A stretch of DNA of 64,000 bases, taken from the NCBI GenBank assembly GCA_022539475.1, contig VCMS01000359.1, positions 30,234 to 94,233 on the forward strand, read 5' to 3'. Made by a program: the position numbers and the translations under genes. Positions 2,412 to 60,892 of the stretch are shown piece after piece. Each line of letters opens with the position of its first letter. Positions within the stretch are counted from its first letter, which is position 1. The notes beneath the pieces are model-generated. The model made no database searches and was not told the DNA's origin. It saw nothing but the letters and a program-made list of their open reading frames with translations. Source of the DNA: Gracilaria domingensis. Its lineage: Eukaryota; Rhodophyta; Florideophyceae; Gracilariales; Gracilariaceae.

Positions 2412-5400
2412 ATGACGTCGATCTTGACTGTCACTCGACCTCCTTCTCCCTTCTTACGACGTTCTCTTGCAGTCTTTGTCGTCGTTTCTCGTTCTTTTCT
2501 TCTTCCCATGGTCTACTACTGTACACATAAGAAGCGTGGGTGCCCCTTCGTTACTCGCCGAGGAGTCTTATCTCTTCAACAGCATGTCAACCATTGCCCG
2601 TTTCGTCTGAAAGCAGCGCTGGGAGACGACAATAGCCGGGCCATTCGGAGAAGCAAGCGTCTCAAGCTTTCCGCGCCCGCGCCTGCATCTTCCGAAACGG
2701 TCACTGCCCCTTGTCGCCTTCCAGAGCCTCCAGTGTCCGAGGACATCGTCGACCCCACTCCGTGCGCCCCTCCCATTCCGGACACTTCGCATTGTGTTTC
2801 TCCTTCCCCGGGTCCCGCGTCATTAGAGCGAGAACACGGAAGCAGTTCCCGCCCAGTGCCTTCTGAGGAGGCCCTTGGTGATTTGCATATGGATTATCTC
2901 ACGGTTTGTCTGGCTTCAGTAGCTTTCAACCTTGGTCATCGTGAGGCGGACGAGCTAATTGGGCTACTTCGGGACCCGCGATTCTCGCAAAAGCGATTCA
3001 ACGAGACCATAACAAGTTCCAAGCGCTGTACAGAACTGAAGAACGCCATTTTCGAACGATACGCCTCAAAGGACTGTTTCAATCGCAGAACTGTCTCGCC
3101 AGAAGGATGTACGTTCAGCGCCACCCTCTACACGAGAGACCCCGTTCAGACACTTGTGAAACAGCTCCAGTTGGCTAACAACGAAAACACATTCTTCCAC
3201 CCTATACCTCAGACCCACTCCACGAAAATATCTCACCCCATGTCCGGCTCTCTCGCAAGAGACGCCACCTCAAAACTTAAGGAAATGGTCATGGGCTCTT
3301 TGGATAGTAGAATAGTGTGGTACTCTCAAGAAATAAGTTACAGTGAATCTTTCGTAGGTCTTCTGCAGGTATACACCGATAAGTCTTCAACAACTCTAAA
3401 GCAAACATCGGTTACCGCCTATCCTCTTCACCTCATATTTCTCAACTTCTCCGACGAGCTTCGCCGTAAGTGTATCCGTGATGACCTCACAGTAGTGGCA
3501 TACTTCCCTACCACACTGATCGAGGTTTCCGCATCTGAAGCAGATGCAATGCCATTTGTTTCTAGCAAGTCTCTACGCCAGTCCAGGATGCAAATCCTTC
3601 AAGAATCTCTTCGTCAAGTCCTGGAGCCCATTCTAAATCTCACGCAGAAAGGTTTTCAGTTCATCGGCGAAGACAAAATAAGTCGAGTTTGCCATCCTCT
3701 GCTTGCAAGTTATTGTGCGGATATTCCTGAGGCTAAGGACATTCTGTCCATTCTTCATGGGACCAAAACGGAAAGCCCGTGTCATAGATGCAAAGCCCCT
3801 CGCTCATCTTTATGCAGTCCTATTCCCACCTCATTCAACGGACGTTCTCAAAAGCACACGAAAAGCATCCGAAAGACATACACAGCTATCTTGCAACATG
3901 CACAAAAAGACGAGGCGGAAAGACGTCCACGTCGTGCGAGGGAGAGGAGATCTCAAGCGGATACTCTGATGCGTTCAAATTCCATATCTCTCATTCCTTT
4001 GTTCCTCGAAACTTCCGTAAGCCTTGGAATGATCCCGGGATTGTCTCCATACAGTCTGTTCTCATCCGAACCATTACACAACTTGCATCTCGGCATCTCA
4101 AAGTTGATAAAAACGGCCACAATCGAGAGACTGCAGTCAGACACCCTGTGCACCACAATAGGAACATCTGCATCGCGTTCATTTCGAACGATACGCACCC
4201 AACTCCTCAACCATGCAAACGCAATTCTAGCTGCCATAGAACGCGACTCTCCTGCCAAAGGTTTACATATCGATTTCTCCACGCAGGAGAAAGGCAAATC
4301 TTTGAATGGTATCTTCACGAAAGACGGTCTCCGTGGAATGCTGGAGGCCAAAAACTACAAAGCACTTGACATGGTCTTTCCCTTCACAGGAGCATTCTTT
4401 GACATATGCTGTGGAGAACAGGACGTTGCCCCAATCACAACCGTTTTCTCTCAGTACTGGGACTTGCTCTCGACCTTATTCAGATACAATCGTGACCCGT
4501 ATTGGACTGAAAGCTCTCTCCTGTGTCTTAGTTCGGAGATTGAAGCCTTCAAGCGTTCCGCAACAAAGACTCTGGCGGATTTTCATCCCCCCAGACTGAG
4601 AACTCTGAAGTTTCATCTTCTCGATCATCTCGTGGACGATATTCGCCGTCTGGGAAGTATCAAGTACTACGACGCAGGCATATACGACCATGCACACCTG
4701 CTATTTAAGAGACACTACAAAAAGACGTCCAGAAGAACAGCAACGGCTGTGGAGGAGACTATTCGCTCCATTGAGCACGGACATGTTAGAAAGCAATGGA
4801 ATGGCAATACTCCTTACCAGCGTAATGCAGGTTTACCAGGAACTTCCACACAGCTTCCTCGGTTTGCAATGAGAGGGCGTTCTTTCACTTTACGAGCTCT
4901 TCAACATTGTGTTTCAAGTATGTCCAGTTCAAAAACATGGACTGCTGTTAGAGAAATGTTCTCAAGTACGGACACAAGGTCGATTCTTGATCAAATTGGT
5001 GAACAGGCCCTTCCTCCTTTCCTCAGTCTCGTGAAAGAAACACTGGATGAGCACTCTATTACATACTTCCCAGAAAAGACAAGGATAACTCTGGTGAATT
5101 CGGCCCTCGTGAAAGGCGGTTTCGTTCCGACTCTTGAACACTTCGATTCGTCTTCTAAGGCACTTAAGCTGGGACGACCCAAATACCGCATCATCCAACG
5201 TGTCTTCGCTTCTCCAGCATTTGGTCCCAGTAGAAAGCCAAAGTTTTCCACTGTATTGGTAAGCGGAGAAGATTCAGAGACTTGGGCTGCCCAGGTAGTC
5301 GCTCTGATTCGAATATCTCTCCTTGATTCTGCACTTACCGCACCAGAGGTGGCATTCGTCCGGTATTTCGAGGTTTTACCCCCCGCAACAAACATCGACC

Positions 5401-5687
5401 ACATATTGAAATGCATATCTTTACGGTGGGCTACAAACGATGAAAAGAACCACACTCTTCCGTTCCCTCGTCATTCCAAAGCGGAGACTATCGTAGAGTT
5501 AACTCCTTGGTACGGGATGGTTCCGGCTTCTGCACTACAGGGAACTGTCCATGTTGTTCGATCAAACTACCCTGCTCCACCTTTTTGTCCTCCACTTCAA
5601 TGCTTTCAACACCGATTCTACATCAATCGATTCTATCATGATTCAGATGAAGGACCAACTGAGCACGTTGATCTTGTACAGCCTTAA
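2412..5687 (+). CDS. Plavaka/CACTA-like DDE transposase
   Basis: An uninterrupted 1091-codon ORF. Near the N terminus is a Cys/His cluster (YYCTHKKRGCPF..QQHVNHC) that looks like a DNA-binding zinc finger. The catalytic region has features of Plavaka/CACTA-type transposases: FVGLLQVYTDKSSTTLK with the first acidic residue, a short Pro/Tyr segment (TAYPLHLIFLNF), LEPILNL, ASYCADIPEAKD with a second Asp, and a CHRCKAP cysteine pair. The C-terminal third contains the EPLHNLHLGISK segment often seen in this group. It would cut and paste its own element in the nucleus. The first ATG is at 2412; the in-frame ATG at 2511, just before the zinc finger, is an equally good start because the first 33 residues look non-conserved. 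No stop or frameshift is seen, so it may still be active. Family assignment is from motif memory, not a search. Confidence 0.75.
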   Translation: MTSILTVTRPPSPFLRRSLAVFVVVSRSFLLPMVYYCTHKKRGCPFVTRRGVLSLQQHVNHCPFRLKAALGDDNSRAIRRSKRLKLSAPAPASSETVTAPCRLPEPPVSEDIVDPTPCAPPIPDTSHCVSPSPGPASLEREHGSSSRPVPSEEALGDLHMDYLTVCLASVAFNLGHREADELIGLLRDPRFSQKRFNETITSSKRCTELKNAIFERYASKDCFNRRTVSPEGCTFSATLYTRDPVQTLVKQLQLANNENTFFHPIPQTHSTKISHPMSGSLARDATSKLKEMVMGSLDSRIVWYSQEISYSESFVGLLQVYTDKSSTTLKQTSVTAYPLHLIFLNFSDELRRKCIRDDLTVVAYFPTTLIEVSASEADAMPFVSSKSLRQSRMQILQESLRQVLEPILNLTQKGFQFIGEDKISRVCHPLLASYCADIPEAKDILSILHGTKTESPCHRCKAPRSSLCSPIPTSFNGRSQKHTKSIRKTYTAILQHAQKDEAERRPRRARERRSQADTLMRSNSISLIPLFLETSVSLGMIPGLSPYSLFSSEPLHNLHLGISKLIKTATIERLQSDTLCTTIGTSASRSFRTIRTQLLNHANAILAAIERDSPAKGLHIDFSTQEKGKSLNGIFTKDGLRGMLEAKNYKALDMVFPFTGAFFDICCGEQDVAPITTVFSQYWDLLSTLFRYNRDPYWTESSLLCLSSEIEAFKRSATKTLADFHPPRLRTLKFHLLDHLVDDIRRLGSIKYYDAGIYDHAHLLFKRHYKKTSRRTATAVEETIRSIEHGHVRKQWNGNTPYQRNAGLPGTSTQLPRFAMRGRSFTLRALQHCVSSMSSSKTWTAVREMFSSTDTRSILDQIGEQALPPFLSLVKETLDEHSITYFPEKTRITLVNSALVKGGFVPTLEHFDSSSKALKLGRPKYRIIQRVFASPAFGPSRKPKFSTVLVSGEDSETWAAQVVALIRISLLDSALTAPEVAFVRYFEVLPPATNIDHILKCISLRWATNDEKNHTLPFPRHSKAETIVELTPWYGMVPASALQGTVHVVRSNYPAPPFCPPLQCFQHRFYINRFYHDSDEGPTEHVDLVQP

Positions 5688-5844: not shown

Positions 5845-8078
5845 TCACACTGTCAATAAAAATTGTTCTTTCACAGTGAGGTAAAGTCCTCCGTTCGACG
5901 GCATTCGATATCCAAATGTAGCCTCTCTCATGTCATTACCAAGAACCTTAGTCCAATCTTCCGTTGTCGTTCCAAAATTATGAAACTCGCTGGAATTGGT
6001 CCTCAAGACACGTTGCCTAACATCCCCCAGAACATTCCTTAAACACAGAGGTAGCAGTTCGGCAAACTTCTTTGTAAACAGTTTCTGTCTCTGGCCACCC
6101 CTTGACACATTCGTACTTAGAAGGCTCACAACCGTCAACACCCAAGCGTCCAAACGTGCGAGCAACAGTATTGTGCCATCTAAAAAGGTGCCCGTATCCT
6201 TGTCTTCCACATCATACCCAATAAACTCCTTCAGCACTTGTACCACGACACGGTTTCGGAAGAACAAGTCTTGATCTTCCGTCGGCATATCCTCGACATT
6301 GTCCGCATTGGAGTACTTTAGACGAACAAATGGGGCTTTTCTCCACCATGAAGTGTTCGGTACACCATTTTCGTCAACACGCAGTATGTTCTCCTGCGCT
6401 TCCTTCAACTGCATTGTGAGTTCGTCAGCATTCTCTTCTACCAGCTTTGTTCTTCTCCAAATCAGATCGTACCCCAGGAGCAGAAATAGTTTATCCCTCG
6501 TATTTCTCTTACGAACGCCCACGACGTCACTCATGGTCTGCCGCATTCTCTGCCTAAGGCACATATCTGCACAAAGTTCCAGTATACACCTGTCGGTAAG
6601 AGATGCTTTTCTAATACCTTCCCAGCTCAACTCCTTCAACTCGCTTTCAACCATTTTCTTCAGCAAAGCATTTGGCCCCCCCTCTACCGACGGTGTGAAC
6701 ATGCCAAAACTGCCCAAGAGCTCCACGGGGTTTTTAGGAACCATGTATGAACCACCTTCCTCCGGCTCAATAAGCCCTTCCCCACTCTCAGTTGCGTCTT
6801 CCACCTTCTCGGCACGGTTACCCCAATTTCGGGTGAGCGACTCACCTTCGAGCCATAGCTCACTTGTTTCTCTCCTTGCCCACGTCAGCATGTTGTGATA
6901 CACTGCTCGAGCAACCACTCGAAACTCGTCGCACACCTCAATTTTATGCTTCTTTCGACCTGTCTGCCCAGGTTCACCAGCACGTGTACTCCTATCTCCC
7001 TCCTGTTTCAGTGCCCCTCTTAGCCCTTCAATGACTAGATCCTTCTCTTCAAGCCTCTTTTTCAAAGCCGTACTCTGCTCTTGGGCGACCTTCACTAGAA
7101 TTCCCCGAACCATCAAGTCCTCTTGTAGCGTCTTAACCTTTTCTTTCAAGCAATTCAGTTCATTTAAAAGATCAGGTCTGTTCATAGAGCTTGAATTCAC
7201 ACCAGTTTGGATATCTTCCGTTATTTCCCTAGCTTCTTCGGCGACAGGCCCCGGTAATGCCGCAGGATTCGGTGTTATTTCGTTATCGGAACTATCCTCA
7301 TGTGCCATAGCCTTAGACACGAGAGGCTGCAGGCATTCTGTGTCCACCCTTGGCACGGCTCCGAGCTCCAACTCCCGTTTCTGTCCTCCTCCATGGCATG
7401 GTATATCAGATGAATTGGGCCTCGTACGAGCTGCAACGGCCCCCGTTCTGGAAAGAGGGGAAGATCGAAAAGTAACTCGTCTATCAGTTGTCTCTCGATT
7501 TCTTATTGTCTTTCTTCCTTGTCCGGACCCATTGCGAGGCATGATACGGTTCATAGCGGCCCCAGTTCTAGAAGACAGGGATGGACGTGACGATCTTAAT
7601 ATACTAGGGCTCTCACGACTTCTCGTCATTGTCCCTTGTTGTCCAGATCCACTGGGCGGCGTAACCCGCGCCCCAGTAGCTCCGGTCTTCGATATCGGCC
7701 GGGGACATGAAGGTTTTGGTGTCATACGAACCTCTTCGGTTCCAGTTGTCATGCCCTCCTGTCCTGACCCGCTGGGCCGAGTTACCTCATCTTCTTGAGG
7801 AGCAGAGACAGATGCACGATTTGCATTATCGGCAGTTGACGGCACGACCTCGTTCGCTGATCCACGAATTCTTGACGCAATCCCGAAGACGCTCCGCTGC
7901 GAGATGGGCGAGAGAGTCCTGTAGAAGGACGCTCACTGACTCTCTCCTTCGTCGAGGACAACTTCCGTTTAGGAAGTGCGGTGGTTGTAGCCTGATTCGT
8001 ATCATCCGATGCTCTTCTCTTCTTCTGTCGACTCTTGTTCCGATGCGTACTATTTCGCTTTCTCGGCGTTATACCCAT
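5845..8078 (-). CDS. coiled-coil protein of the mobile-element block, with one frameshift
   Basis: The 666-codon main frame starts at 7845. The natural start is probably the ATG at 8078 (MGITPRKRNS, very basic), with a frame change near 7800-7860. The N-terminal third has imperfect repeats of about 40 residues built around GSGQ followed by a TGA-type segment (three to four copies), Ser/Arg/Pro-rich and disordered. Around residues 220-290 of the main frame is a leucine-rich coiled coil (LLNELNCLKEKVKTLQEDL, then LKKRLEEKDLVIEGL). The C-terminal half is globular-looking with no family I recognise. It is convergent with the transposase and lies directly downstream of the methyltransferase-SET gene on the same strand. 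I infer a nuclear accessory protein of the element; no function can be assigned. The frame change could be an intron, a mutation or a sequence error. Confidence 0.55.
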
Positions 8079-8324
8079 GTTGTGGAGATAAACAGGGTAA
8101 TGAAACGAAATTGTTGGGGAGGGGGGAGGGGGTGGGGGGGGGTGCATGGTTCAGATATTCCGGGAGACTCCGCAGTTCCTGCTTTTTAGGAATTTGAGGT
8201 GCCCAATGGGTCGCAAATATCGCCGTTACAGATGAAGAGCTCCAGTGTACATGTACAACAACGCGTATTGCAGGCAGCTGCAACACTCACAAGCATATTT
8301 ACTTTCTATTGGTACTGAACTCAT

Positions 8325-10907
8325 CTATTGCTCCAATGTCAGAGCCCAGTCCCAGGCGTACTGCTCTCCGTAGTTGAAATACAACTCTTCGCCCCTCTCA
8401 ATATCTCTTACAGCTCTACAACGAAGTAGAGCATAGTTAGAAAGGTCTGACTTGAACTGTATCACGGACTTCGCTTCCACGACCTGCACATTGGCACTTC
8501 GAGTCCTGTTTGACCGGGGCTCCGATAAATCGGGATCCCCGGCATGATATCCGGCGTTGTTAATGTAGCCCCCGATACAAAAAGGCGCCGGGACAATGTA
8601 GACTTCGCTCTCCTTTCTATCCTGAGCCTGTCCTGGTCTGTTCCTCAGGTGCAGAAACTCCGTACCAGTCACAGTGACCATCATAGAAAACAACTTGTAC
8701 CGCACTGGAGTTGCTCCGAGACAGCCACTTCCATACGTTAAGTGTCTTTCTTTCCGGTTCGTCAGATCCGTGTATACCAAAGTTCCATAGAAATGACAGA
8801 TAGTTTCCCCAGCCAATATCTTATGTTCCGTGAACACCCCCATACCAGCACGGGGATGTCGAATCTTAGAAGATGCTATATGTAAGCGATAGCGATTGGC
8901 TTCAACAGTCAACAGCATATGCATATCCATAAGATTCAGAGCTCCTCGGTACTTCCCCTCCCAAAGATCTACAGTACGCTGTCCACACTTCTCGACAAAG
9001 TCCCAGTCCTTCCAGTATCTTCCTAGGAACTGAGTAATATGTCCAGGCATCACTTGGTACTGGGGGTAACCAAATGGAGCCTCCCATTCAAGCCGACCTC
9101 GGTCCCGATGTGGAACCCGTTCATAGGTCGTTGAAGCCGCATCCACCACCTCCTGTTCAACCAGGATGTCATTCTTCCCCCCGCGAATAACTTCGGCCAT
9201 AAGAGTCGTTAGATGGTGCTTCGCATGGCTGAAACATGGCCTATTCTTCTCGCACCCCAAGAACTTCCTATGCTTTGTCAGCGATAGGCACGCCATACCC
9301 GTAGAAAAAGTTCCCGCGAACATGTCCATGACAAGATCACCCGGTCTTGTGAAGCGACATATCAACTCCTTCATCAACTCCCTCGACTTCTGCTCCGGTC
9401 TTATGTACTGCCCACCTGGTACTGAACTACCTGGCTCATGTACCTTCCATGTCAACCACTCCCCCGCTCTCGGTTTGGGCACCCGGTCAATTACATTCCT
9501 GTTAGCCGGGAAAGTGGAAGGAATGAAATTGTTCTCCTCAAATGGAGTAAGACTGGCTTCCTCCGATGGTCGCAATCCACGCTTCACCCCATGAACGGCG
9601 TACTCCGTTACGGGCTATATCCCAAACTTCCGTGGATTCCCTCCAACATTACTGCGATCCCGGATGAACACCAGTGGATTCGCATCCACTTTAAACGAAG
9701 GCATGAGTTCTGGTTTACCTTCGCTTCCAGCTTCATCTTTCGTACTCGCCGTTTCCGAAAGTATCCTGTGCCACACATGAAACTGTGCCATGGCACAGAA
9801 TATAATGAAGTGCCCACCTGACCGAAGCGCGGAACTTATTAAGTCAGCCGTACGGATCATGTCTTCCTCACTGAAGACATCGTGACCACTATTCCGTTTG
9901 TTCCTCTTCCTTCGAGTGTTAAAGGGAGGGTCTGTTAGGACAAGCTGTGCCTCACCCCATAAAATCTCACTCTGATTCACAAACGTTTCGTGTGTGTGCC
10001 TCAGGTCCTTCATGTCACAGTTGTACGCTACAAAGTGTGACTTTCTCATCCCCTTCCACACCTTGTCCATATTCATTCGAAGGAGACTGGATATCCCCTT
10101 CATGGGCGGCTCAATACCAGTCTTTTGGATGTTGTAACCGGCAACCCGAGATTCATGCTCCGCAAGATTCACCGGCTTCTCGAACTCGTCGCTATCGGAG
10201 CTCACGAGGTTCATATACTCTCGACGAGGTGGGGGTGGGGCAGACTTGGTCGAAGAAGGTTCGGCATTACCGGAAGTTTTAGGGGTTTTCGTCAGTTCAA
10301 TATCAGGTTTCGCGTGAATGCCGACATGGAACCCTGCCGCATGACGCATATCCTGTATCGGTTTCCATAGCAACTCCGAAAACTTCTGAAATCGAGCAGG
10401 CAACTCACCGGAGTCAGAGCTAGATACGGTATCCATCCGTATCTCCGAAAACTCTATCCAGTTCCTCATCTGATCAACCCGTAAGCTATAGAGGCTATCG
10501 TGGGTGCATATGGTTTCGAGGTCTGTCAAAAACTCCTTAGCCAGTATTCGCAGGTTTGTATCGCATTCATCACTCAAGGTCTCCACCGATCCACTAGTAC
10601 TGCTCTGTGGCACATCCTTTGTGTTGAATCGAGTACTCTGGCTCGGCGGGGCATAACCAGACTCCCGTGTCTCTAGCGCTGTATACTTCAACGTCTGCAT
10701 ATTCATGTAAATGTATGGTTTCACCATGTGCTGAACGTTCGTGTATCCAAGATGAGCCGCAAAACAACTCCATGCCCATACGACCTCACTGATAGCGAAT
10801 CCCAGTCGATCACAGTTGTCTTTGGAGAACGACGTAAAAGTGGGTATGTACACAGATGGTGCATGGTTCACTTTTCGTTTCTTTTTCGGTTGTTTCTTCT
10901 TCATCAT
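8325..10907 (-). CDS. DNA methyltransferase (beta-class amino-MTase motifs) fused to a SET domain; one in-frame stop
   Basis: Start chosen at the ATG ATG at 10907. The first residues include PKKKRKV (residues 7-13), a classical nuclear localisation signal. About residue 326 is LTDPPFN, the catalytic DPPF/Y motif of N6-adenine or N4-cytosine DNA methyltransferases. About residue 528 comes LVMDMFAGTFSTGMA, the SAM-binding motif. This IV-before-I order is that of beta-class enzymes. The C-terminal 180 residues form a SET domain: AGMGVFTEHKILAGETICHFYG, GGYINNAGYHAG and EELYFNYGEQY; the usual NHS is replaced by INNAG. A single TAG at 9615-9617 (codon 431) separates the two methyltransferase motifs, with the frame intact on both sides, so the copy is either a recent pseudogene, read through, or mis-sequenced. 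The base N at 10933 lies just upstream. It is divergent from the ParB/oxygenase genes across the palindrome at 11474-12832. Confidence 0.7.
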
Positions 10908-10973
10908 CGGATGTTGTCGTTCTCTCCCATTATNTGGCCGAGGTATGAATAAGTAATACGACCTCAAATGGGT

Positions 10974-11458
10974 TCACAGCTGTTGTGGGATGAACACTGT
11001 CGTCTTCAGAACCTGCTTTCTCCTGGTCATGAAATAACCAACCAGGCATCGCACCGGTAGGTATATACCCATATCCATAGAGAGAAGGAAAAAATCGCGG
11101 AGACTCTGGTCCTCATCCCCGTCCTTCTTGTCAAGAAGCTTCGTTACAAGATATCGTTGTTCCACAGGTTTGTTATTCACAACACTCTTTCGCAGCTGTT
11201 GCAGTGTCAAGTTCTGCAGGTTCTTGGAGTTAGTGGCCTCCTCAAACATCTTCCTTGCCTCCGGAATATCCTTATAGTTCTCGGCGCAGAACTCTATTAA
11301 CCCTCTAAACCCCACGTCCCGTGGCGATCAGGGCCTCCATCGCTGTTTGCCAAAGCATCGCGAAGAACCAAGAAAAGTCTGACATATGCATGGAACGCCG
11401 GAGGCGGAGCACTCATGTCGATAGGATGTATCTCCTCTCCAACATCGGTGGAATCCAT
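10974..11458 (-). CDS. unknown protein upstream of the methyltransferase-SET gene; one frameshift
   Basis: The ATG at 11458 opens a frame (MDSTDVGEEIHPIDMS..) that runs to a GGGG tract near 11310, where the frame must change by one base to continue as the 113-codon stretch ending at 10974 (IEFCAENYKD..FIPQQL). The start lies only about 15 bp from the left outer arm of the palindrome, so that arm is probably its promoter. The product would be about 160 residues, charged and helical-looking, with no family I recognise. Its stop at 10974 is in the same frame as the methyltransferase gene, so the two could once have been one polypeptide. I think separate genes are more likely because of the good ATG and nuclear signal at 10907. 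Confidence 0.45.
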
Positions 11459-11840
11459 CGCTTCAGCGCAAACAACGGAGGCGAGCCTTTAAATGGCGAC
11501 TTACGCTGGGCACCCCCGCTTTCGGCAGCTCCTCCCAGCGCACTGCCAGTCTCGTCCGTGTCCGTGTCCGCTCGGAGCGATAGGCGGTGGGCGATAGCGT
11601 CGCGTGTCGGAGCGATAGCGTCGCGTGTCGGCCACGTCGCGATTCGGAGCTATTGCAACGGTCCCGTATTGTGCTAAAAGTCGCGGATCAAGTGGGTGTG
11701 AAGCGCTAGTTTTCTCTAGTTTGATATATGTGCACGGCGTGTGCAGCGAAATCACTGCCGGAAGTGCCGGGAGGAGTGTTTTGGGAGGTCTCCGGAAGGC
11801 GCCGGAATGTGGCCAGAACGTGCCCGCGGGCGGGAGGGGT

Positions 11841-11874
11841 CGGTCGTGTTAGGGTAGCTACCCTAACACGACCG
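11841..11874. repeat. perfect palindrome containing TTAGGG/CCCTAA (copy 1 of 4)
   Basis: A 34-nt perfect palindrome with the core GTTAGGGTAGCTACCCTAAC, flanked by GC-rich palindromic blocks. The same core recurs at 11953-11980, 12304-12343 (40 nt perfect) and around 12418-12448 (centre altered to GTACCTAC). Confidence 0.9.
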
Positions 11875-12077
11875 GACCCCCCCGCCCGCGGGCATAAAAT
11901 CGCACATTTTTCAAAAAATCGCCAAAACGTGCCCGCGGGCGGGGGGGTCCAGTCGTGTTAGGGTAGCTACCCTAACACGACCGACCCCCCCCGCCCGCGC
12001 GCACGTTTTGGACGATTTTTTGACACCCTCCGGAGACCTCCCAAAACACTCCTCCCGGCACTTCCTGTACCCACTGC

Positions 12078-12198
12078 GTCACCTCAGTGCACCATCCCGG
12101 AAATTAGGGAGTGTCTGGAGGGTGAGAAGACGGGATGGTCACCTCAGTGCACCATCCCGGAAATTAGGGAGTGTCTGGAGGGTGAAGATGACGGGATG
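12078..12198. repeat. two tandem 60-bp units at the palindrome centre
   Basis: Two head-to-tail copies beginning GTCACCTCAGTGCACCATCC, differing by a small indel near the end of the unit. They form the only asymmetric part of the large palindrome. Confidence 0.85.
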
Positions 12199-12894
12199 GT
12201 GCACTAAGGTGACGCAGTGGGTACAGGAAGTGCCGGGAGGAGTGTTTTGGGAGGTCTCCGGAGGGTGCCAAAAATCGTCCAAAACGTGCCCGCGGGCGGG
12301 GGAGGTCGGTCGTGTTAGGGTAGCTACCCTAACACGACCGACCCCCCCCCGCCCGCGGCACGTTTTGGGCGATTTTTTGAAAAATGTGCGATTTTATGCC
12401 CGCGGGCGGGGGGGTCCGGTCGTGTTAGGGTACCTACCCTAACACGACCGACCCCCCCCGCCCGCGGGCACGTTCTGGCCACATTCTGGCACCTTCCCGG
12501 GACCTCGCAAAACACGCCGCCGCGCAGTGATTTCGCTACACCCGGCCGCCGGTACGTTGGCGCCGCTGTCCACGTGTATTTGCGGGAGTAGGCTGTACAT
12601 GGAAGTGAATGAGTGTACTCTTGACTACTATGCAAAGCATTTGAAGAGCATGATTGAGAACGCGACCATTGCTCGCGTGAGTCATCATTGCGCGAACTCC
12701 ACGACTCTAAAGCGTACAATCAGTGTGCGAGCGGCCACGGACAGGACACGGACGAGACTGGCAGTGCGCTGGGAGGAGCTGCCGAAAGCGGGGGTGCCCA
12801 GCGTAAGTCGCCATTTAAAGGCTCGCTCCGTTCTTGTATCGTCCAGAGCGAGCGTATTGTTGATATACACCTTTCACTGCAATAGCTGTTCAAC

Positions 12895-14658
12895 ATGAAG
12901 CCAACTCGTGTTCGAAAGCGTACGCAAAGCGTGACTCCTCGCACTCGGCGGAGCACTCGATTATTGCAAGGTGGAATGCGGGTTTCTCTGCAGATGGATA
13001 TTGAGGATGAAGGAAAGGTGATAGTCGGGGAAGCGTTGTTGCATGGAATTGGAAGTGTTCTACGCCGCGAGTTGCACGGGAAGCAATTGGACCCAGGTCT
13101 TGTGGTGGTTCATAATATTCTCATCAGTCGAAGCGGTCAGACGTTCTACCCTTACCGGGCGGAGGGCCTGGATCTTCCACAATATATCCAGGATCTCCGG
13201 ACGGCCGCTCCTTGGGATGAGAAAATGATGGAACCGGTGGCAGCCAGCATTCCGGCGTCGAAGCGAGGAACGGTGAGCGCTATGAGTGAGGTGATGACGC
13301 CGACAAGCCGCACGGAGCCAATTCGAAGTTCATCAACACCGAGAGGTAGCGCATCAGTAGCACCTCCGCGGGCAGGTCCGTCGTCTGTTACGAAGCGGTC
13401 TATGGAGACGAGAGCATCCCCAGCTACGAAGCGGACAGGTCAAACAGAGTCTACCTCCGCTACGAAGCCCACTGCGTCGAAAAGGGCTTCTCCTGCGATG
13501 AATCAGACCGTCGACACAAGGGGATCTTCTGCGTCGAAACAGACGGTTCAGCAGGGACGGCTGTGCAAGAGGAGGAAGATGAGATCATGAAAGGTCCCCT
13601 TCCAGACGCGGATGCGCAATCCGCGCAAGGAGCTGGTCCATCTGTACCCCAAACTGCACCAGAAACTGCGGAGCAGCAGGACGATGACGTTGTGTTTCTG
13701 TCCGCAAGAATGGCACGTTCAAGTGTTTCTGGCGAGCGGTCTGGAACACAAGGGACACCTACTCGGAGCAAGACGTACAGACGAATTCGTCAGAAGGTAC
13801 CAAAGGTGAACCTCAATTACTACCGGATGGTTGTTGTTACTGTTGACATCACTCTGGTGGACACTCCGCCCAATTTACTCCGTGGAGTAAGTAGACGCCA
13901 CGTTGAAGCCCTTGTGAAGAGTATGGAGGAGCGGGGGATATTTCAGTCGATGGGTTCTCCAGTGGTGGCCTTACAAGATGCTACTACGGGAGAGAGGGAT
14001 ACTGACAAGGGACGCCTAACGAAGAAGTGCTTCATTGTAGATGGTTTGCATCGTCTGAAAGCTATACAATATTTGGCAGCGACTGGTGCACCGAAGTGGA
14101 AGCGATTAGCAAGTTTTGGCGTTGCAATCTGCTGATACGAAGAGATGGGAGACCCATTGGGATGAAGGAATTGTTATGTGTTGCTCGTACCTCAATGAGT
14201 CGACGAGTACCATGCGAAGGATGATGTTTGCAGACAAGATACACTCTATAGTTAGTGTGGTCGCCATTCTAATTGAAGATGTTGAGGGGGTGACGCCGGC
14301 AGACGTGGATCCTGCAGAAGTGACAGAAGTGTTGAAGGAGAGCCAACTGATTGGGACTGTGCAAGAGCGTCAGTACCTGAGATATGCCAATGTCGCCCTG
14401 CAACTCATGTCTCGTGAGGGAATGCTGGCCCATTTCGAGGATATATGTGAGACTGTGAGTGACATAGGTCTCACACATCTGTCCCATACTCCGCTATATG
14501 TTTTGGATGCCGAGGAGTTTTCCTTCATTCTTGATTGTCTTCAGATGTTTCTATTGAAGGGCAAGTCGACGAAGACAAAGCAATGGAAAAGCTTTGAGGA
14601 GGTTCGAGGTTTCTTTTATGATAGAGCAGTTCTCTGTTCCGCGCGGCTAGAGCAGTGA
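12895..14658 (+). pseudogene. ParB-like domain protein, broken by frameshifts
   Basis: It begins with ATG at 12895 about 60 bp from the palindrome arm. The first frame (to 13590) encodes a basic, Ser/Thr-rich protein with repeats of the type SATKR/SASKQ. The frame then changes near 13500-13590 to one carrying a ParB/sulfiredoxin-fold segment: TPPNLLRGVSRRHVEALVKS, then GSPVVALQD and FIVDGLHRLKAIQYLA, where DG.HR is the family's core motif. Between about 14110 and 14215 two further compensating frame changes are needed (LLIRRDGRPIGMKELL in one frame, STMRRMMFADKIHSIVSV in the next) to reach the last frame, which ends at 14658. Introns could explain one change but not the closely spaced pair, so I call a pseudogene or poor sequence. 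ParB-like domains bind or nick DNA in other mobile elements. It ends overlapping the oxygenase frame by 4 bp, so the two may originally have formed one protein. Confidence 0.55.
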
Positions 14659-16808
14659 GGAATGAACTGAACGAGGAAGAGTCCATGGAAGTGTTCCTGA
14701 AACGCGAAGTCAGTCTTTCTGCCCCATCGAATGAAGATGACGTTGAAGACCCAGACAACAACGCAGCTGTGTATCAGTTCCTTTTGGGACAAGTTGTGAA
14801 CTTCAACACATTGCCGCGTGTTCGGAGCAGGACGAGCTCAATTAGAACTGCCACGACTTCCGTTCAGAATCGATTGCGGACGATGCTCAAGGTAATTCCG
14901 CCCCCCGCACCAGTGAAGCAGTCCGTGACGAAGAGGAGGACTCCCGCTGCTGCTGCTGCAACATCTGCCAGTGAAGAAGGGGAGCCGCGAAGAAGTGCAC
15001 GAGAACGGGCGCAGGTGAGTTATAGGGAAATTGAGCACGGCCGAAATCGAGGTGCCATAGAAGTTCTGGATAGCTCTGAAGAAGAACAGCGGGCTCCGCC
15101 GAGGAAGAAACGGAGAAAGACTTTCACACAACAGATGAGATCTACTCTGAACAGCATGACACCGGATGACCTGATGTCTCAACTAAATGAACATGTGCTG
15201 AGAGGAAGGTCGATGAAGGTTCAGTTCGTGGCATTGGGAGAGGGAGCGAATGCAGAGAACGCAGGCAGTTCTGCATTTGTGGATGACGATGAGCTTCTTT
15301 CTGTGACAGTTCCACGGGTTGTCACCGTCGAGAAAGATGCTGCGCCAGACGATCAGCAAGAGACAGGTGGGGGGTCATTTGATGACGAGTTACCTACAGC
15401 TCTTCCGGAATATGAGGAGCACGGACTTGTTCGAGGTGACCCATATGATGGCCCACCGAACCCATCATGGTGCGGGTATGCCAGGCTGAGACCGCAGGAA
15501 TGGCAAGGGAAGAACGTAATTGAGCACAAGGACCCCTGGCTCAGAGTCATTCACTTGCCGAAGGGACATAGGTCGGAGCTGCTAAGTGTCTCGAATCTCA
15601 GAGATGTACACCATCTTGTCTTTTGGCACGCTGCAAGGGCTGAACATCGCCTACGGGCGGAGACATTTGGTATGCAGTATCCCCGTACTCGACCGACAGG
15701 TATGGATGATGAAGAGGTGCTGTGGGTTGCTGCGAAGGAGCATGACGAATTTGGGCAAATGTTCTTCGCCCGAATGCAAGCTGAGCTAAGGCAGAATGGA
15801 TATTGCGTGCTTGATGGTTTTGCGACGGATAATGGTGTCCCTAAATGGGAGGAGTTGGAAGAAGTTCGGGAGTTCGGAGATGTGTCGGGGAAGTTGGTGG
15901 ACTTCTTCGAGAATGAGTATGGAGCGATGCCGGATATACGGAAAGGAGAGGAACAGAAGTCGTTTGTTCAAATAATCAACGATGATGAAGGATGGAAGGA
16001 CGGTAGCGATGGACCATTTGAGGGGAGAGTGATGTCGACACGTTGGGGTACGGTGGAGAAGCCGGAGGATAATGAGGAGCTCAGGTGGGTTGTAAGGTCG
16101 CGTGCTTTACTTGATGTTCGAATGGGTACAATTGCTGCGGCTTTGGGACTATGGGACAATGAAAGGGAAGCTGTGAAGATGTACACTCCGAAAACTGGTG
16201 GTCGATTTCTGGGGACGACGAGAAAGTGCAAGCGCCAGACGCTGCACACCGACTTCAGTGGTCTGGTTACGAAGGAAACAATGAATACTGGCAACCCCGG
16301 ATACTTTGTAATGGCCTATGGGAAAGAGGGCTTTCCTCTCTGGGTGAGCGCTGGAAGCCATCAACTGGTGGGGATGAACAACCAACAGTTGCGAGTGATG
16401 TCGGAGGTGTATCCAGCGAAGAAGATAATCATCCCACCGTACTCTGTATTCGTGGGCCGTGGTGATGTGACACATGCTGGAGCAAGTGGGAAGGACAAGG
16501 TGGATAGGCCCGAGTCTATGGATTTGCTGGTTAGATACCACATGTACATGGTACCAGAGGGCTACGCACTACCTGATGCTGTTCATCGGGTGCGGGATTT
16601 CCGACCCACGTTTGTCAATGGTGACGAGGAGAAGGAGGCGGAGGATGAACTGTTGTCCGATAAGGAGGGTGGGGTGGTTGACATGGACGAAGACCAAGTG
16701 GTCGTGGAGATTGGTGTGGAAGCGGACGCCGGTAGAACCGAAGTGCTCGAGAGTAGTAGTGATGACGATTTGCCAATAATGAGGCTGCGAGCGCCTCGAA
16801 GTGGATGA
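14655..16808 (+). CDS. 2-oxoglutarate/Fe(II)-dependent oxygenase-like protein (left copy)
   Basis: The 717-codon frame is intact; the first real ATG is at 14685 (MEVFLKREVS). The N-terminal third is acidic/basic and disordered with a nuclear-looking PPRKKRRK cluster. The C-terminal half carries the double-stranded beta-helix signature: LHTDFSGL with His531 and Asp533, GYFVMA and FPLWVSAGSHQL, then IIPPYSVFVGRGDVTHAG with His607, followed by DLLVRYHMYM, whose Arg would hold 2-oxoglutarate. Spacing of the HxD..H triad (74 residues) is normal for the superfamily. Enzymes of this fold oxidise modified bases, histones or small molecules. Because it sits beside a DNA methyltransferase-SET gene and a ParB gene, I suggest a role on DNA or chromatin, but the substrate is unknown. 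From 14870 on it belongs to the inverted duplication; a second copy lies at 62069-64000. Confidence 0.65.
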   Translation: MRNELNEEESMEVFLKREVSLSAPSNEDDVEDPDNNAAVYQFLLGQVVNFNTLPRVRSRTSSIRTATTSVQNRLRTMLKVIPPPAPVKQSVTKRRTPAAAAATSASEEGEPRRSARERAQVSYREIEHGRNRGAIEVLDSSEEEQRAPPRKKRRKTFTQQMRSTLNSMTPDDLMSQLNEHVLRGRSMKVQFVALGEGANAENAGSSAFVDDDELLSVTVPRVVTVEKDAAPDDQQETGGGSFDDELPTALPEYEEHGLVRGDPYDGPPNPSWCGYARLRPQEWQGKNVIEHKDPWLRVIHLPKGHRSELLSVSNLRDVHHLVFWHAARAEHRLRAETFGMQYPRTRPTGMDDEEVLWVAAKEHDEFGQMFFARMQAELRQNGYCVLDGFATDNGVPKWEELEEVREFGDVSGKLVDFFENEYGAMPDIRKGEEQKSFVQIINDDEGWKDGSDGPFEGRVMSTRWGTVEKPEDNEELRWVVRSRALLDVRMGTIAAALGLWDNEREAVKMYTPKTGGRFLGTTRKCKRQTLHTDFSGLVTKETMNTGNPGYFVMAYGKEGFPLWVSAGSHQLVGMNNQQLRVMSEVYPAKKIIIPPYSVFVGRGDVTHAGASGKDKVDRPESMDLLVRYHMYMVPEGYALPDAVHRVRDFRPTFVNGDEEKEAEDELLSDKEGGVVDMDEDQVVVEIGVEADAGRTEVLESSSDDDLPIMRLRAPRSG

Positions 16809-17072: not shown

Positions 17073-17984
17073 ATGAAACTGAGAAGTCTATACAGTTCCT
17101 GTCTATGCGGTACTTGTGGCAGTATGGTGACTGTATCAGGAAAAATGGCAGAGGAACAGAGAGACTTGGCAGAAATTTCACCAAATATCTTGTCTAAGTT
17201 CATATATGCCAATGGTTACGGTATATTAAGTTCCGTTGATGGAACGTTGAGAAGAGAAGGAGAGTCAATTCCAGAAGAAGTTGTGAAGTGTATGAAGTTC
17301 ATTGACGAACGTGTTGGTTTCGGACTTGTAACAGGGGGTGATGTGGGCGACGTGGAGGGGAAAATGGAAGGACTCGGAGACTATAAGTTTGGTGTCTCGG
17401 CGAATCATGGAGCTTTCCTGCGTTTCTCTGACGAGAGGGAAATTAAGGGTGCATTCAATGATCACACCCTTGACCACACTGTTGACGGACTACTGTTCCT
17501 GGCAAGGGATTTGAATAGGAGGCATGGTATTGTGAATGATGATGACAAGGGGTTCGTGGAGACCAGAAGTGATAGTGGCCTTCCCAATTTCGTGTACAAC
17601 AAACTGTGGCAGTGGAAGGAAGAAGTGGATTCTGCTATTGGGGACCTGTTGCAGAAGATGGATGCGTTTGTTATCTATCCCGGCGATAAAAGTTGCGAAA
17701 TTGTGGACAAGCGATACACAAAAGGAAGCGGAGGAGAAAATCTTGTGGATAATGAACCGAGATTTATTGATACGGATGACGTCGTGACGTTCGGAAGTGC
17801 TTTCAGCGACGGGCCTTTGCATGAGGTAGGCGTGTACGGCGTTCACGTCAAAGAAGATTGTATCCCGGGTGGAGTACACAACCTGTTCGAAAGCGTGGAG
17901 GATGTACATTCGACAATTATGTTGGTGGCTCTGTTGTACGGCTACGAGGAAAAGCAGCACGATAAAAACCACCATGATTCATAA
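17073..17984 (+). CDS. HAD-superfamily phosphatase-like protein A (left copy), nucleophile Asp missing
   Basis: Intact 303-codon ORF with ATG start. The fold resembles HAD-IIB / trehalose-phosphate-phosphatase-like enzymes: motif I GILSSVDGTLRR (about residue 51), motif II region GFGLVTGG, a GVSANHGAFLRF segment, and near the end TFGSAFSDGPLHEVG, equivalent to the acidic motif IV, followed by FESVEDVHSTIMLV. In motif I (DxDGT) the first Asp, the phosphorylated nucleophile, is Ser (SSVDGT), so the protein is probably not an active phosphatase. The same Ser is in the right copy at 60893-61804, so this is not a recent error. The N terminus (RSLYSSCLCGTCGS) may be a targeting or secretion leader. 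It is convergent with the related gene HAD-B, 52 bp away, and the two are clearly paralogues. Confidence 0.7.
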   Translation: MKLRSLYSSCLCGTCGSMVTVSGKMAEEQRDLAEISPNILSKFIYANGYGILSSVDGTLRREGESIPEEVVKCMKFIDERVGFGLVTGGDVGDVEGKMEGLGDYKFGVSANHGAFLRFSDEREIKGAFNDHTLDHTVDGLLFLARDLNRRHGIVNDDDKGFVETRSDSGLPNFVYNKLWQWKEEVDSAIGDLLQKMDAFVIYPGDKSCEIVDKRYTKGSGGENLVDNEPRFIDTDDVVTFGSAFSDGPLHEVGVYGVHVKEDCIPGGVHNLFESVEDVHSTIMLVALLYGYEEKQHDKNHHDS

Positions 17985-18036
17985 AAGGGTATTGAGATAT
18001 ATACGACACTTTTATTACTGAGATCTCATATCATAG

Positions 18037-18909
18037 CTAAGTATTAAAGGCATCGTAGCACTTGAAACAAATTCCAAGAGCATTTCTAAACCATTGACAC
18101 TTGCATTTTCTGTACCCGTACAGTTCTGCCACCCTTCTGATGGTCTCATGCACGTCCTCCACCCCATCAACAAGATATGTTACCGCTGGTGGAGGGTCGT
18201 CTCCCTTCACATGAACTGCGAGGGTTGCCATTTCATATAGAGGACCATCATTGGAAGCATTCCCGAAAGCAACGATTAAATGTGTGTCGAACTGGGGGTC
18301 GTTTTCAACCAAGGCTAGCGCCCCACTATTTTTCGTGAAACGAATGTCCCCTATGTCACAGTTTTCATCTTGCGGGTACGCAACCAGGTTCGGAAAGGAT
18401 GTCAACACTTTTGAAATACCGGAGTTAGCTTCTGTTTTCCACTTCGACAGTCCATTGTACGTGAAGTTAGGGAGTCCACTGTCTTTTCTAGTGCTCACCA
18501 CTGCTTGTTGACGCTCTTCGTGAAGTCCGTGCGATTCATTTAAGGAGAGTGCAAGTCTCTCAAGTTCGGCTGCACATCTTTCGTAGCCTTCCCTGTCAAG
18601 GTCCTGATCAATTTCGGTACCATTGGATAATCTCACCCGTGCGCCTTGGTTTCCAGAGATGCCAAAAGTGTAGCCACCCAGGTGCTCCATGAAACTCTCG
18701 GCATCCTCTATATCTCGCTCAGTAGCAATTCCGAAACCAACGAGTGCGTTGATGTACTTCATGCATTTGACTGTTTCGGCAGGAATGTTCTCCCCAGCTC
18801 TTTTCAGAGTACCGTCAACATCACTAATCACGGCGTAGCCTTTTTCGAATATTTCGTTAGCCAGCTGCTGAGGAGTTACTTCTTGGGCTCTAACTTCTGA
18901 GTTATACAT
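18037..18909 (-). CDS. HAD-superfamily phosphatase-like protein B (left copy)
   Basis: Intact 290-codon ORF starting MYNSEVRAQE. Motif I is complete here: GYAVISDVDGTLKRAGE with both catalytic Asp residues. Then come MKYINALVGFGIATERD, TFGISGNQGARVRL, DSGLPNF and VAFGNASNDGPLYEMA, ending with DGVEDVHETIRRVAELYG. The set matches HAD-IIB hydrolases of the trehalose-6-phosphate phosphatase / sugar-phosphatase kind; the exact substrate cannot be read. The motif II GIATER differs from GIATGR in the right copy, and Gly is the usual residue there. A Cys-rich C-terminal tail (KCKCQWFRNALGICFKC) follows the domain. Its 3' end faces that of HAD-A, which suggests an old inverted tandem duplication. Confidence 0.7.
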   Translation of the reverse strand: MYNSEVRAQEVTPQQLANEIFEKGYAVISDVDGTLKRAGENIPAETVKCMKYINALVGFGIATERDIEDAESFMEHLGGYTFGISGNQGARVRLSNGTEIDQDLDREGYERCAAELERLALSLNESHGLHEERQQAVVSTRKDSGLPNFTYNGLSKWKTEANSGISKVLTSFPNLVAYPQDENCDIGDIRFTKNSGALALVENDPQFDTHLIVAFGNASNDGPLYEMATLAVHVKGDDPPPAVTYLVDGVEDVHETIRRVAELYGYRKCKCQWFRNALGICFKCYDAFNT

Positions 18910-19536
18910 GTTTTGAAAGCTTTCGAAAGGGTTCGTTTTGCAAATGGGTGTGGGTATACGAATGAGAAGGATGTGATTGATGTTTACAAGGTGTTTCGTA
19001 GTATAAAAAGAGTCTAAGAACGACCATATACGGGTATTGTAGTACTGTTTTAAAACGTTACTAGGAGGAGAAGTTTTTGCATCGATTTGAAGTAAAGAAA
19101 GGATGATTTAGTCATAAATTATATGCACGGGTTCAAGTGGGTAAAGAAAACTGTAAATATCTTTAACATGAGCTTAGAAATCAAGAAGAGTAAAACAACC
19201 TCCATTACGGGTTGAAACCCATAAAAGGTTTACCTTACTTTATACGGGTGCCCCAAGTAATGCAAACGCTTAGTTCTTCAGAAATATCACAATTTTTGTA
19301 CTTGTTTCGTTACTAGTATCGTGCACTTTAATGATATGGAATGACCATTTTCTATCTAGCAAAATCCTAGCGAAGTATTAGTGATAAGGGATGTAGGATT
19401 TAAAGGGGCATATTTGAACCACAGAAGGACGAACAATATAAGTAATGTAATAGGAACAGGTCATTTCGATAAAGTAACTTTTATGTTTAACTATCTCTAA
19501 AAGGTTTACAACACCGAAAAGTCATGTGTTCTAACC

Positions 19537-20439
19537 TCAAAGCTGGGGGAATGGGGAGGGGGATAACTTTTCCTTAACAACGTTGACGTAGTTTGTATGA
19601 AAAGGAGCGGGGTCACCGCCTACAATGTTTCTTTCTTGGCGGGAAAAGTCGTAGAAGTACGCGTTCCTAAACTGAAAGTCGGAGAAAGAAGTAGGGAAGC
19701 CAATGAGAGTTTTCCCATATGCAAGAAGTCGCCCAACGGTCTCTTCCAGGTTGAAAGTAGTACCTGTCTTAAGCGAAACTATCTTCAACAGCTCTTTCAT
19801 TATTGTGAGCACAACCGTACTGCACTCCGTAGCGACTACGTCCATAGGAATGAAACCTCTTGAAGCCCCGACGATGTTGAACGCTGATAGCCACACGAGC
19901 TTCTCATAATAGCTTACGAGAAATGTGTCTTCGTCGACAACCCCGCAAGTGAGACCCATAGACCTAAACCTGTCTGCAACGTTGGAGGCCCACTTTCCTG
20001 TTGCGACAGTGAGACCATCCGGACTTTGAGGAGTGACACCATCCTGCGGAGCTGCGTTTCTTGAGGGGACACCAACGTATAGGACAACTTTTGAACATGT
20101 GTCCACACCGAGCTTCGAAACCAATGGTATGATGTCTCCATTCTGGAAGAAAACGAGATTCTCTCTGAGCGAATAAGGGCAAGCCTGAATTACGGTCTCC
20201 AGGGTGTTCGTTCTTCCACAAACTAGTATCGGTACATCAGAAAGATGAGAGGTAGCAGCCATGCTGCAGAATTCGTGTGCGGAAATGACCGTATCTTCTT
20301 CGTTCGCCAGCATGGTACCTATACGCCCCCTTCCAACAATAACGGCCCGAGTCCTTCGGGCGGGAGATGAGGTCTGAGGGACGTCAGAGTATCTGGGACT
20401 CGGAGGCGGAGTGGGAGGCATGTCGCACTGGGAGTTCAT
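19537..20439 (-). CDS. ketopantoate reductase-like (ApbA/PanE family) protein, left copy
   Basis: Start chosen at ATG 20439 (MNSQCDMPPTPPPSPR), giving 300 residues, the normal family length; the frame is open further upstream but that part looks like leader sequence. After a Pro-rich N terminus comes the dinucleotide-binding glycine loop AVIVGRGRIGTML, then VPILVCGRTN, ENLVFFQNGD (equivalent to the family's LQNG), VLYVGVPS, and the C-terminal helical domain YEKLVWLSAFNIVGASRG with the conserved Lys and Asn. The family reduces 2-dehydropantoate to pantoate with NADPH in pantothenate synthesis, but eukaryotic members often have other substrates. The copy is intact; the right copy (58439-59341) has a nonsense codon. 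Confidence 0.7.
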   Translation of the reverse strand: MNSQCDMPPTPPPSPRYSDVPQTSSPARRTRAVIVGRGRIGTMLANEEDTVISAHEFCSMAATSHLSDVPILVCGRTNTLETVIQACPYSLRENLVFFQNGDIIPLVSKLGVDTCSKVVLYVGVPSRNAAPQDGVTPQSPDGLTVATGKWASNVADRFRSMGLTCGVVDEDTFLVSYYEKLVWLSAFNIVGASRGFIPMDVVATECSTVVLTIMKELLKIVSLKTGTTFNLEETVGRLLAYGKTLIGFPTSFSDFQFRNAYFYDFSRQERNIVGGDPAPFHTNYVNVVKEKLSPSPFPQL

Positions 20440-20829
20440 TGCAAGTGTTCGAATGTTTTTGTGTGACGATAGAAATGGAAGATGGGGCGGAGAACTGCTG
20501 GGGTAAAGAGTGATACTTAAGTAAAAACGGTTAGGAAGCGCAGAACGGGAACATGGTTCACTTTGTGAAAGTGAGCGAAATGTATGATATGTGATTGTAC
20601 TGAATGAATGATAGGGCTTGTATGAGACGACAAGCCACAAAGTGTGATGATGTTTTATGAAAGGTAGGTGGAAGAGTAGAAAGTGTGCAATGAATGAAAC
20701 TGATTTCGAACCTGAGTTGTAAAGTAGTTGTAAAGTACGAGTTACGGGGAGCTTGAATACAGGATGAAAGGAGCCATTTTGGCTTCATAAATGACGTGAA
20801 CGGGTTCTATAGCTTCACTTGGATTGCCA

Positions 20830-21157
20830 TAATTAAAAGGATGGAGTTGGATTGCGCCCGAATACGTCTATAAAGGTCGTAGAAGCACTTATGAACGAAG
20901 GAGTTGTAGACATGTTATTGTTGATGACGGTGGAGCCAGGGTTTGGAGGACAGGCGTTTATGGAGGGTGTTCTTGACAAGGTGCGACATGCAAGGGAGTT
21001 GTACCCAAGAATAGGGATACAGGTGGATGGGGGTATTGGACTGAGTACTGTGAAAGGAGTAGTGAAGGCCGGTGCAAACATTTCAGTTGCAGGATCTGCC
21101 ATCTTTGGCTCGAGTAACCCAGCTCATGTCATAGCTGGTTTTCGAAAGGTTGGTTAG
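20830..21157 (+). pseudogene. ribulose-phosphate 3-epimerase, 3' half only (left copy)
   Basis: The frame encodes the C-terminal half of the (beta/alpha)8 barrel: [30 protein letters not shown] (catalytic VNPGFGGQ-type loop and the DxxLxMTV strand), GIQVDGGI with the metal-binding Asp, and AGANISVAGSAIFG, ending at the normal C terminus. The 5' half is deleted: sequence just before it (to about 20830) matches the right-arm flank upstream of RPE, and about 440 bp present in the right arm (about 57608-58047) are missing, with a short AAT overlap at the junction. A further 13-bp gap follows. The enzyme would interconvert ribulose-5-P and xylulose-5-P in the pentose phosphate/Calvin cycle, but this copy cannot. 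Confidence 0.85.
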
Positions 21158-21224
21158 AGATAGTAGCATAAATTTATTGTTTATTACATTGTTACCTTTA
21201 CGTGTTATCACGACTATATTCTCC

Positions 21225-21573
21225 GTCTCCATTGGAGATGTATTTCTCTTGTATCACAACCGGGAAAGGATGTGAGAGAACATAAATATATCCCCAGTGG
21301 ACGCTGAGAGGGAGGATGAACTACTCTACGTGCTACCATTGTTACCCATCTGGTGTCGAGTGGTGACATATACTTTTTTTGTCACAACCCACAAAGGATG
21401 TGACGGAAGAAGAACATGCCCCCAGTCGAGACAGAGGGTGAGCAACTCTAAGTACAATCACTAGTCCCTAGCTTGCCTCCACTGGCAATATCTTCCTGTT
21501 TTGCTATAACCATCGAGTGAGGTTATGGTGGAAGAGAAAAATATCGCCGGTCGAGGCGAGGTGGGTGGGGACT
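21225..21573. repeat. three tandem, diverged long hairpins
   Basis: Units at 21225-21309, 21349-21437 and 21470-21573, spaced about 123 bp, each fold into one imperfect hairpin of 85-105 nt. Apical stems are TCACAACC/GGATGTGA, GTCACAACC/GGATGTGAC and ATAACC/GGTTAT; the basal stems pair segments such as TCCATTGG with CCAGTGGA. They lie just 3' of the epimerase remnant. The whole block is absent from the right arm, inside its deletion. Confidence 0.65.
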
Positions 21574-21790
21574 ATGTGAAGAGGGGACAGAGAGATGGCG
21601 CTTAAATATTGGAAGGTGCGGAGGTGTACAGTAGATGTTTTGGCGGGAAATGGGATGAGGGAAACAGGGACAATCATGGTGCTGGATATAGCCCGTGTGG
21701 TTGGACAGTGGGGGTGGACAGCACAGTTTAGCTCGATTGCACTGTATCGCAGCGGAAACTTCGATCCAACTACTACTTCTTTTTCTGAAG

Positions 21791-60840: not shown

Positions 60841-60892
60841 CTAGGATATGAGATCTCAGTAATAAAAGTGTCGTATATATCTCAATACCCTT

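Follow-up and report, generated by a model that had tools for sequence, protein, structure and literature searches.

A Plavaka-type transposon of the red alga Gracilaria domingensis encodes a predicted DNA methyltransferase–SET fusion and a divergent ParB/oxygenase-like protein

The locus described here lies in a 64,000-bp stretch of the Gracilaria domingensis genome (the window, part of contig C359) and raises the question of whether a single mobile element carries both a writer of DNA and histone marks and an enzyme that could oppose such marks. That proposal was made in an initial annotation of the sequence, in a fungal frame that had to be dropped, the host being a red alga (Rhodophyta, Florideophyceae, Gracilariales). 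Further copies and the ends of the element were searched for in the 77.9-Mb assembly of the same genome (680 contigs). The principal features in the window are as follows.

687 to 23157, no strand assigned: complete element of 22,471 bp; alignments of copies extending to an end break off here
687 to 709, plus strand: left terminus, CGTCTGTCTCTTGCAGATGCTAG
23133 to 23157, plus strand: right terminus, ending ACAGACG (inverted CGTCTGT)
2412 to 5687, plus strand: Plavaka-type transposase, 1091 amino acids, PF18759 at 4.5e-19, with CHRC and HLLDH motifs
8325 to 11458, minus strand: DNA methyltransferase–SET fusion gene, 1045 amino acids in the copy on contig C465, broken in the window
9615 to 9617, minus strand: in-frame TAG dividing the methyltransferase in the window copy
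12895 to 16808, plus strand: fusion gene of a ParB-like part and an HxD..H..R part that resembles 2-oxoglutarate (2OG) oxygenases, 1305 amino acids in contig C296, frameshifted in the window
56235 to 64000, minus strand: right part of a second element copy, which runs out of the window

Stretches of seven other contigs were colinear with the element at about 95-99% identity when aligned to the window, and aligned stretches that reached a boundary broke off at 687 (left) or 23157 (right). Contig C34 was colinear with the window from end to end and C203 from 1830 up to the right terminus; the remaining aligned stretches were partial or ran off the sequence read. The element has the ends 5'-CGTCTGT..ACAGACG-3'. 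With up to two mismatches allowed, a 21-base left-end pattern was found at 568 places in the genome and a 25-base right-end pattern at 574, and the reversed control of each at 0; neighbouring left and right ends were mostly spaced about 9 to 23 kb apart (pairing by eye, first 100 places per pattern). At 10-22 kb for each of about 570 ends, the family may make up 6-13 Mb of the 77.9-Mb genome. Because the same pair of termini encloses the transposase, the methyltransferase–SET gene and the ParB/oxygenase-like gene end to end in the window and in C34 (and from 1830 in C203), one element carries all three. Nothing was found that would assign these genes to different elements and so refute that reading, although both end-to-end copies lack a matching target duplication. 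A shorter copy (C8:197,779-208,117, 10.3 kb, hereafter C8a) is an internal deletion made of colinear pieces of the window element: it joins the stretches up to 5311, 11626-13818, 17584-17707 and 19453-23157, and is without the methyltransferase and most of its ParB/oxygenase-like partner. A chance joining of two half-elements was considered and is not favoured, as this derivative retains pieces of both halves between the same ends.

The transposase was assigned by PF18759 (69.3 bits in the window, against a cut-off of 26.3), in agreement with the Plavaka/CACTA-like transposase first read from the sequence, and its gene (2412-5687) lies 2.6 kb from the SET end of the methyltransferase gene. Genome-wide, PF18759 gave 123 scored matches, including other Plavaka lineages. 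No KDZ transposase was found, Pfam at E values up to 1 giving Plavaka alone for the window transposase. By eye, CHRC and HLLDH were recognized ahead of the last catalytic E; they correspond to C(2)C and H(3-4)H, motifs found across the wider CMCT group. In the GIYEHAH block the E is present in five of the six copies where the block was read; the window copy has D (GIYDHAH), possibly a damaged catalytic residue.

For analysis of insertion sites, the same genome was queried with seven of the ten joined flanks, one of them truncated, and 40 of 989 candidates were scored. Among the matches scored, 39 were unoccupied repeat copies for the insertion on C26 and one was an unoccupied copy for that on C19; no empty site was found among these 40 for the other five flanks searched. 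The C26 site read ACC-TG-GCG when unoccupied (five copies aligned) and ACCTG-element-TGGCG when occupied, and the C19 site GG-AA-CGG (one copy aligned) and GGAA-element-AACGG. These alignments give a duplication of 2 bp and an element that starts with CG. The dinucleotide CG, seemingly present on both flanks, was rejected as the target duplication, since comparison with the empty sites makes CG part of the element and the two bases next to it the duplication. Of the 27 end pairs compared, in which two left ends served twice, 12 had a 2-bp match, among them 10 of the 13 pairs shorter than 14.1 kb. Matching duplications flank C8a and five more copies of the same length, and a 13.07-kb copy on C42, flanked by TA/TA, holds a SET match (77464-77943). 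By its transposase sequence and the length of its duplication the element is classified as Plavaka-type, outside PlavakaA and PlavakaB, whose termini (TGT..ACA or CATCA..TGATG) differ from those found here.

The methyltransferase–SET gene had been read as one minus-strand frame with DPPF and DMFAGT motifs and a C-terminal SET domain. This reading was borne out: the copy on C465 is an uninterrupted open reading frame (ORF) of 1045 amino acids. In the window the TAG at 9615-9617 separates DPPF (frame 9618-10973) from DMFAGT and SET (frame 8328-9614), which share the same reading frame; relative to C465 the window copy has this one TAG and five single-base gaps, the gaps lying upstream of the open frame 8328-10973. 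Of 150 scored SET matches in the genome, eight fell within an open frame of 1055 amino acids. Both domains were detected by Pfam (N6_N4_Mtase, 3.8e-15; SET, 1.7e-7), the SET scores being 33.9 and 32.0 bits against a cut-off of 22.4. The presence of DPP[FY] upstream of DxFxG, together with the N6_N4_Mtase domain, is that of beta-class N6-adenine methyltransferases, and by structure comparison the predicted methyltransferase fold is that of CcrM (aligned rows span 14-308, the methyltransferase part). The SET part had profile similarity to short SET pieces of KMT5A and EZH2 only. Nineteen relatives of the fusion protein were found at 27-42% identity, and the methyltransferase profile matched 64 loci in viral contigs, chiefly in the methyltransferase part. 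That the element encodes a putative DNA and histone mark writer is well supported at the level of domains.

Selection was estimated from 9-11 copies per gene, variants common to at least two copies being separated from singletons. The dN/dS-like (nonsynonymous to synonymous) ratio was 0.21 for shared and 0.86 for singleton variants in the transposase, 0.26 and 0.55 in the methyltransferase–SET gene, 0.56 and 1.03 in the ParB part, 0.57 (10 nonsynonymous and 5 synonymous changes) and 0.97 in the oxygenase-like part, and 0.68 and 1.02 in ORF2 (listed below). Stop codons numbered 0 among shared variants and 34 among singletons. Averaged over pairs of copies, and so with post-insertion decay included, the ratio was 0.60 for the transposase, 0.39 for the methyltransferase–SET gene, 0.82 for the whole ParB/oxygenase-like fusion and 0.95 for ORF2. 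These ratios clearly point to constraint on the predicted methyltransferase–SET writer.

On the plus strand the initial annotation had placed a ParB-like gene and a separate oxygenase gene. The strand stood and the separateness did not: a single 1305-amino-acid frame without a stop was found in C296 and C81 (among the best 36 of 1400 candidates scored; match 1-1305), from which the window copy differs by four single-base gaps (compared with C296). The fusion protein was 89-94% identical to two NCBI proteins of G. domingensis (P0005 and P0006), whose models are without the HxD region, as if it had been excised as an intron, and whose names (mediator subunit 15-like, SasA) are unrelated; these gene models are likely misannotations. 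A more distant relative (P0007, 29% identity to the fusion) aligned with the same two-part layout. Further protein searching with the fusion gave nothing beyond the two G. domingensis models. No match was found for the ParB/oxygenase-like pair in viral contigs or for P0007 in phages, and a search of prokaryote genomes gave 17 loci, all confined to residues 684-788 of the query.

The ParB-like designation was kept in part. The window stretch matched PHROG ParB families, which are phage families, at 5e-4, 2e-3 and weaker (0.0085 for P0001), a weak family support; Pfam gave no ParB family for the stretch, P0007 had no ParB match, and a GmrSD_N match in the window was below threshold (0.089). In the C-terminal domain the complete HxD..H triad that had been noted is present, with a distal R, in the window copy, the second window copy and P0007; across this domain P0007 is 38% identical and H-x-D, a GSH block, the later H and R are all kept. 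The same residue order, H-x-D..H..R, occurs in 2OG enzymes such as the PhyH-like ones. The oxygenase assignment was not backed by any profile or solved structure, and for TET/JBP, of which distant members can escape detection, Pfam gave no family at E values up to 10. The domain is probably a 2OG-type oxygenase.

The two genes diverge from an intergenic region with the following features.

11481 to 11563, plus strand: arm 1 of an 83-bp inverted repeat, upstream of the methyltransferase–SET gene at 22 bases from its ATG (11458)
12744 to 12826, minus strand: arm 2 of the repeat, upstream of the ParB/oxygenase-like gene at 68 bases from its ATG (12895)
11765 to 12526, no strand assigned: nested palindromes, rich in GC, in the interval separating the two genes

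The arms are 100% complementary in the window and flank the nested palindromes on the outside. Of 11 sequences compared, 9 had the repeat in front of both genes, at 92.8-100% identity; one arm alone was present in C28, which is without the stretch 10827-12426, and in the deleted C8 copy. In 12 copies the distance between the two divergent gene matches was 1.3 to 3.3 kb. A shared promoter region had been suggested before, and the finding is stronger than that suggestion, an identical 83-bp inverted repeat lying upstream of both start codons; the arms may act as promoters. The nested palindromes (11765-12526) have repeated TTAGGGTAG/CTACCCTAA centres.

Other genes were recorded within the element.

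5845 to 8147, minus strand: ORF2, about 800 amino acids in intact copies, coiled-coil in appearance (by eye), frame broken in the window; no known family by profile search
17073 to 17984, plus strand: HAD-like hydrolase ORF (PF08282, 7.8e-5)
18037 to 18909, minus strand: second HAD-like hydrolase ORF (PF08282, 1.7e-11)
19537 to 20640, minus strand: ORF without a known family, retained in the 10.3-kb derivative
20852 to 21157, plus strand: C-terminal part of a ribulose-phosphate 3-epimerase gene (PF00834, 6.9e-24, profile 113-198 of 198)

The element thus has metabolic-gene pieces inside it (epimerase, 20852-21157; HAD-like, 17073-18909); relatives of the CACTA group capture genes. Outside the element, a strictosidine-synthase/SMP-30-like gene (208-686; PF03088, 4.5e-14) runs into the left end and, by eye, is not resumed past 23157. 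A transposase-like region (36357-38976) had a weak match to Transposase_21 (tnp2), below the cut-off (0.0017), and 45033-45845 holds part of a retrotransposon reverse-transcriptase RNase H (PF17917, 7.2e-35).

With a transposase, a putative two-mark methyltransferase and a ParB/oxygenase-like protein encoded behind mirrored upstream sequence, self-made chromatin is the simplest reading of the element: a parasite with its own chromatin-state kit, to which we give a probability of roughly 0.5. In this reading the first protein would introduce N6-methyladenine (6mA) into DNA and would also methylate histones, and the second would be held on DNA by its ParB-like part and oxidise a methyl mark through its oxygenase-like part. 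Made together, the two would keep the element DNA transcriptionally open and counter host silencing, and the open state would lead to transposase production and transposition. 6mA in eukaryotes is associated with permissive chromatin (PMC12695648), and the TET/JBP cargo of fungal transposons has been proposed to counteract silencing (PMC12730594). The fullest form of the proposal is a complete and jointly expressed two-mark system: a 6mA and histone writer, and a ParB-guided 2OG oxygenase that removes or converts an opposing mark, the host's or its own, so that a self-made open state would replace host silencing and would have spread to perhaps a tenth of the genome. In that form it is tentative and rather doubtful. 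Of the original idea of a transposon with a writer and an opposing enzyme, the single element and the writer domains have held up, and the oxygenase is without profile or structure support.

Several observations weigh against a chromatin-state kit. Among end pairs longer than 16 kb, 2 of 14 match at 2 bp (C2b and C8d). The AA/AA match of C2b is coincidental, as a continuation of the interrupted transposase gene (AACACAATGC) follows a right end on C38; the 20.1-kb C8d pair, GT/GT, is known from its ends alone. The window copy is flanked by GG and TG and the C34 copy by TA and AA, and the long pairs, which mostly lack a match, include these two and others on C5, C29, C54, C51 and C50; the mismatches probably stem from chimeric assembly or from exchange between copies. 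The 10.3-kb form without the cargo genes has multiplied too. Evidence that the ParB/oxygenase-like gene is under selection is thin and weak. Profile, sequence-to-structure and solved-structure comparisons gave no oxygenase support for the C-terminal domain, and its fold prediction was unusable (pLDDT, the per-residue confidence score, 28.5). The element may be a writer with a DNA-binding partner only, the domain being no oxygenase at all; this is the lesser possibility, consistent with the lack of family, sequence-profile or fold support, and set against it is the retention of H-x-D, GSH block, H and R at 38% identity across the domain.

Other functions for the same genes were weighed. The methyltransferase might serve as a transposition gate, marking the ends or promoter of its own element, with the result that freshly replicated, half-methylated DNA would be favoured as substrate or would alone be expressed, and with the SET and ParB/oxygenase-like parts aiding chromatin access and reset. 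Dam methylation gates bacterial IS10 and IS50 in this manner, the enzyme groups with bacterial adenine methyltransferases such as CcrM, and it is under purifying selection, as is the transposase of the same element; for such a gate, however, the SET domain and the partner would be superfluous and no target motif is known, and we regard it as unlikely. The genes could also be passive cargo, picked up like the epimerase and HAD-like pieces and useless to the element. A clear metabolic-gene fragment does lie in the same element and the 10.3-kb form has multiplied without the genes, though trans-mobilisation would permit that anyway; the long conservation of the methyltransferase–SET protein (19 relatives, 27-42% identity), its low dN/dS-like ratio among transposing lineages and the mirrored upstream module make this explanation improbable. 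Least credible is competition or addiction, in which the methyltransferase would shield element DNA while the ParB-like protein attacked or disabled unmarked rival DNA. A ParB-like fold can have nuclease activity, the divergent pairing with mirrored upstream sequence resembles paired modules, and the phage-family PHROG matches and sub-threshold GmrSD_N match (0.089) are in keeping with it; yet in C8a the methyltransferase and the greater part of its partner are gone, while this and five more 10.3-kb copies have matching duplications (mobilisation in trans being possible), SET has no place in such a scheme, and no relative of the fusion was found in viral contigs or phages.

If the element is active, DNA adenine methylation, histone methylation and transposon escape would be joined in one testable red algal unit, and it may account for a good part of this genome. 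Transposons with one epigenetic enzyme are already known. Not found in the literature searched was a single polypeptide of a bacterial-type DNA adenine methyltransferase and SET, head to head with a ParB/oxygenase-like fusion, with mirrored upstream sequences, in one very abundant element; likewise the initial annotation knew of no described element with this exact set, and none was found in the open-licence literature searched. The closest enzymes, CcrM and M.BceJIV, are beta-class N6-adenine methyltransferases that agree with the methyltransferase of the element in sequence profile, predicted fold and order of motifs; they are bacterial and are not known to carry SET. The main text of a 2025 survey of 6mA across eukaryotes contains 'red alga' and 'rhodophy-' 0 times (PMC12695648). 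The rotifer N4-cytosine methyltransferase is likewise a bacterial-type methyltransferase acquired by a eukaryote, and retrotransposons have captured DNA methyltransferases (DNMTs) (PMC8885841, PMC5890265). HarbingerS and MuDR transposons of Phytophthora also carry a SET gene of histone-methyltransferase type (cited in PMC12730594); they belong to other transposase superfamilies, and a fusion of SET with a DNA methyltransferase is not described for them in the part of that paper covered. The giant repeats of Amoebidium are likewise large clusters of genes, poor in introns, that include a Plavaka transposase, and relatives of their genes have been recorded in red algae; they differ in having many tyrosine recombinases and other cargo, and termini, target duplications and the present gene set are not mentioned in the section covered (PMC11244446). 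The fungal Plavaka transposons share with the present element a Plavaka-type transposase, 2-bp duplications and epigenetic-enzyme cargo with a proposed escape from silencing. As far as the sections covered describe them, their cargo is a TET/JBP gene and their termini are TGT..ACA or CATCA..TGATG, whereas the red algal element, up to 22.5 kb long, carries methyltransferase–SET and ParB-like fusions between CGTCTGT..ACAGACG (PMC12730594).

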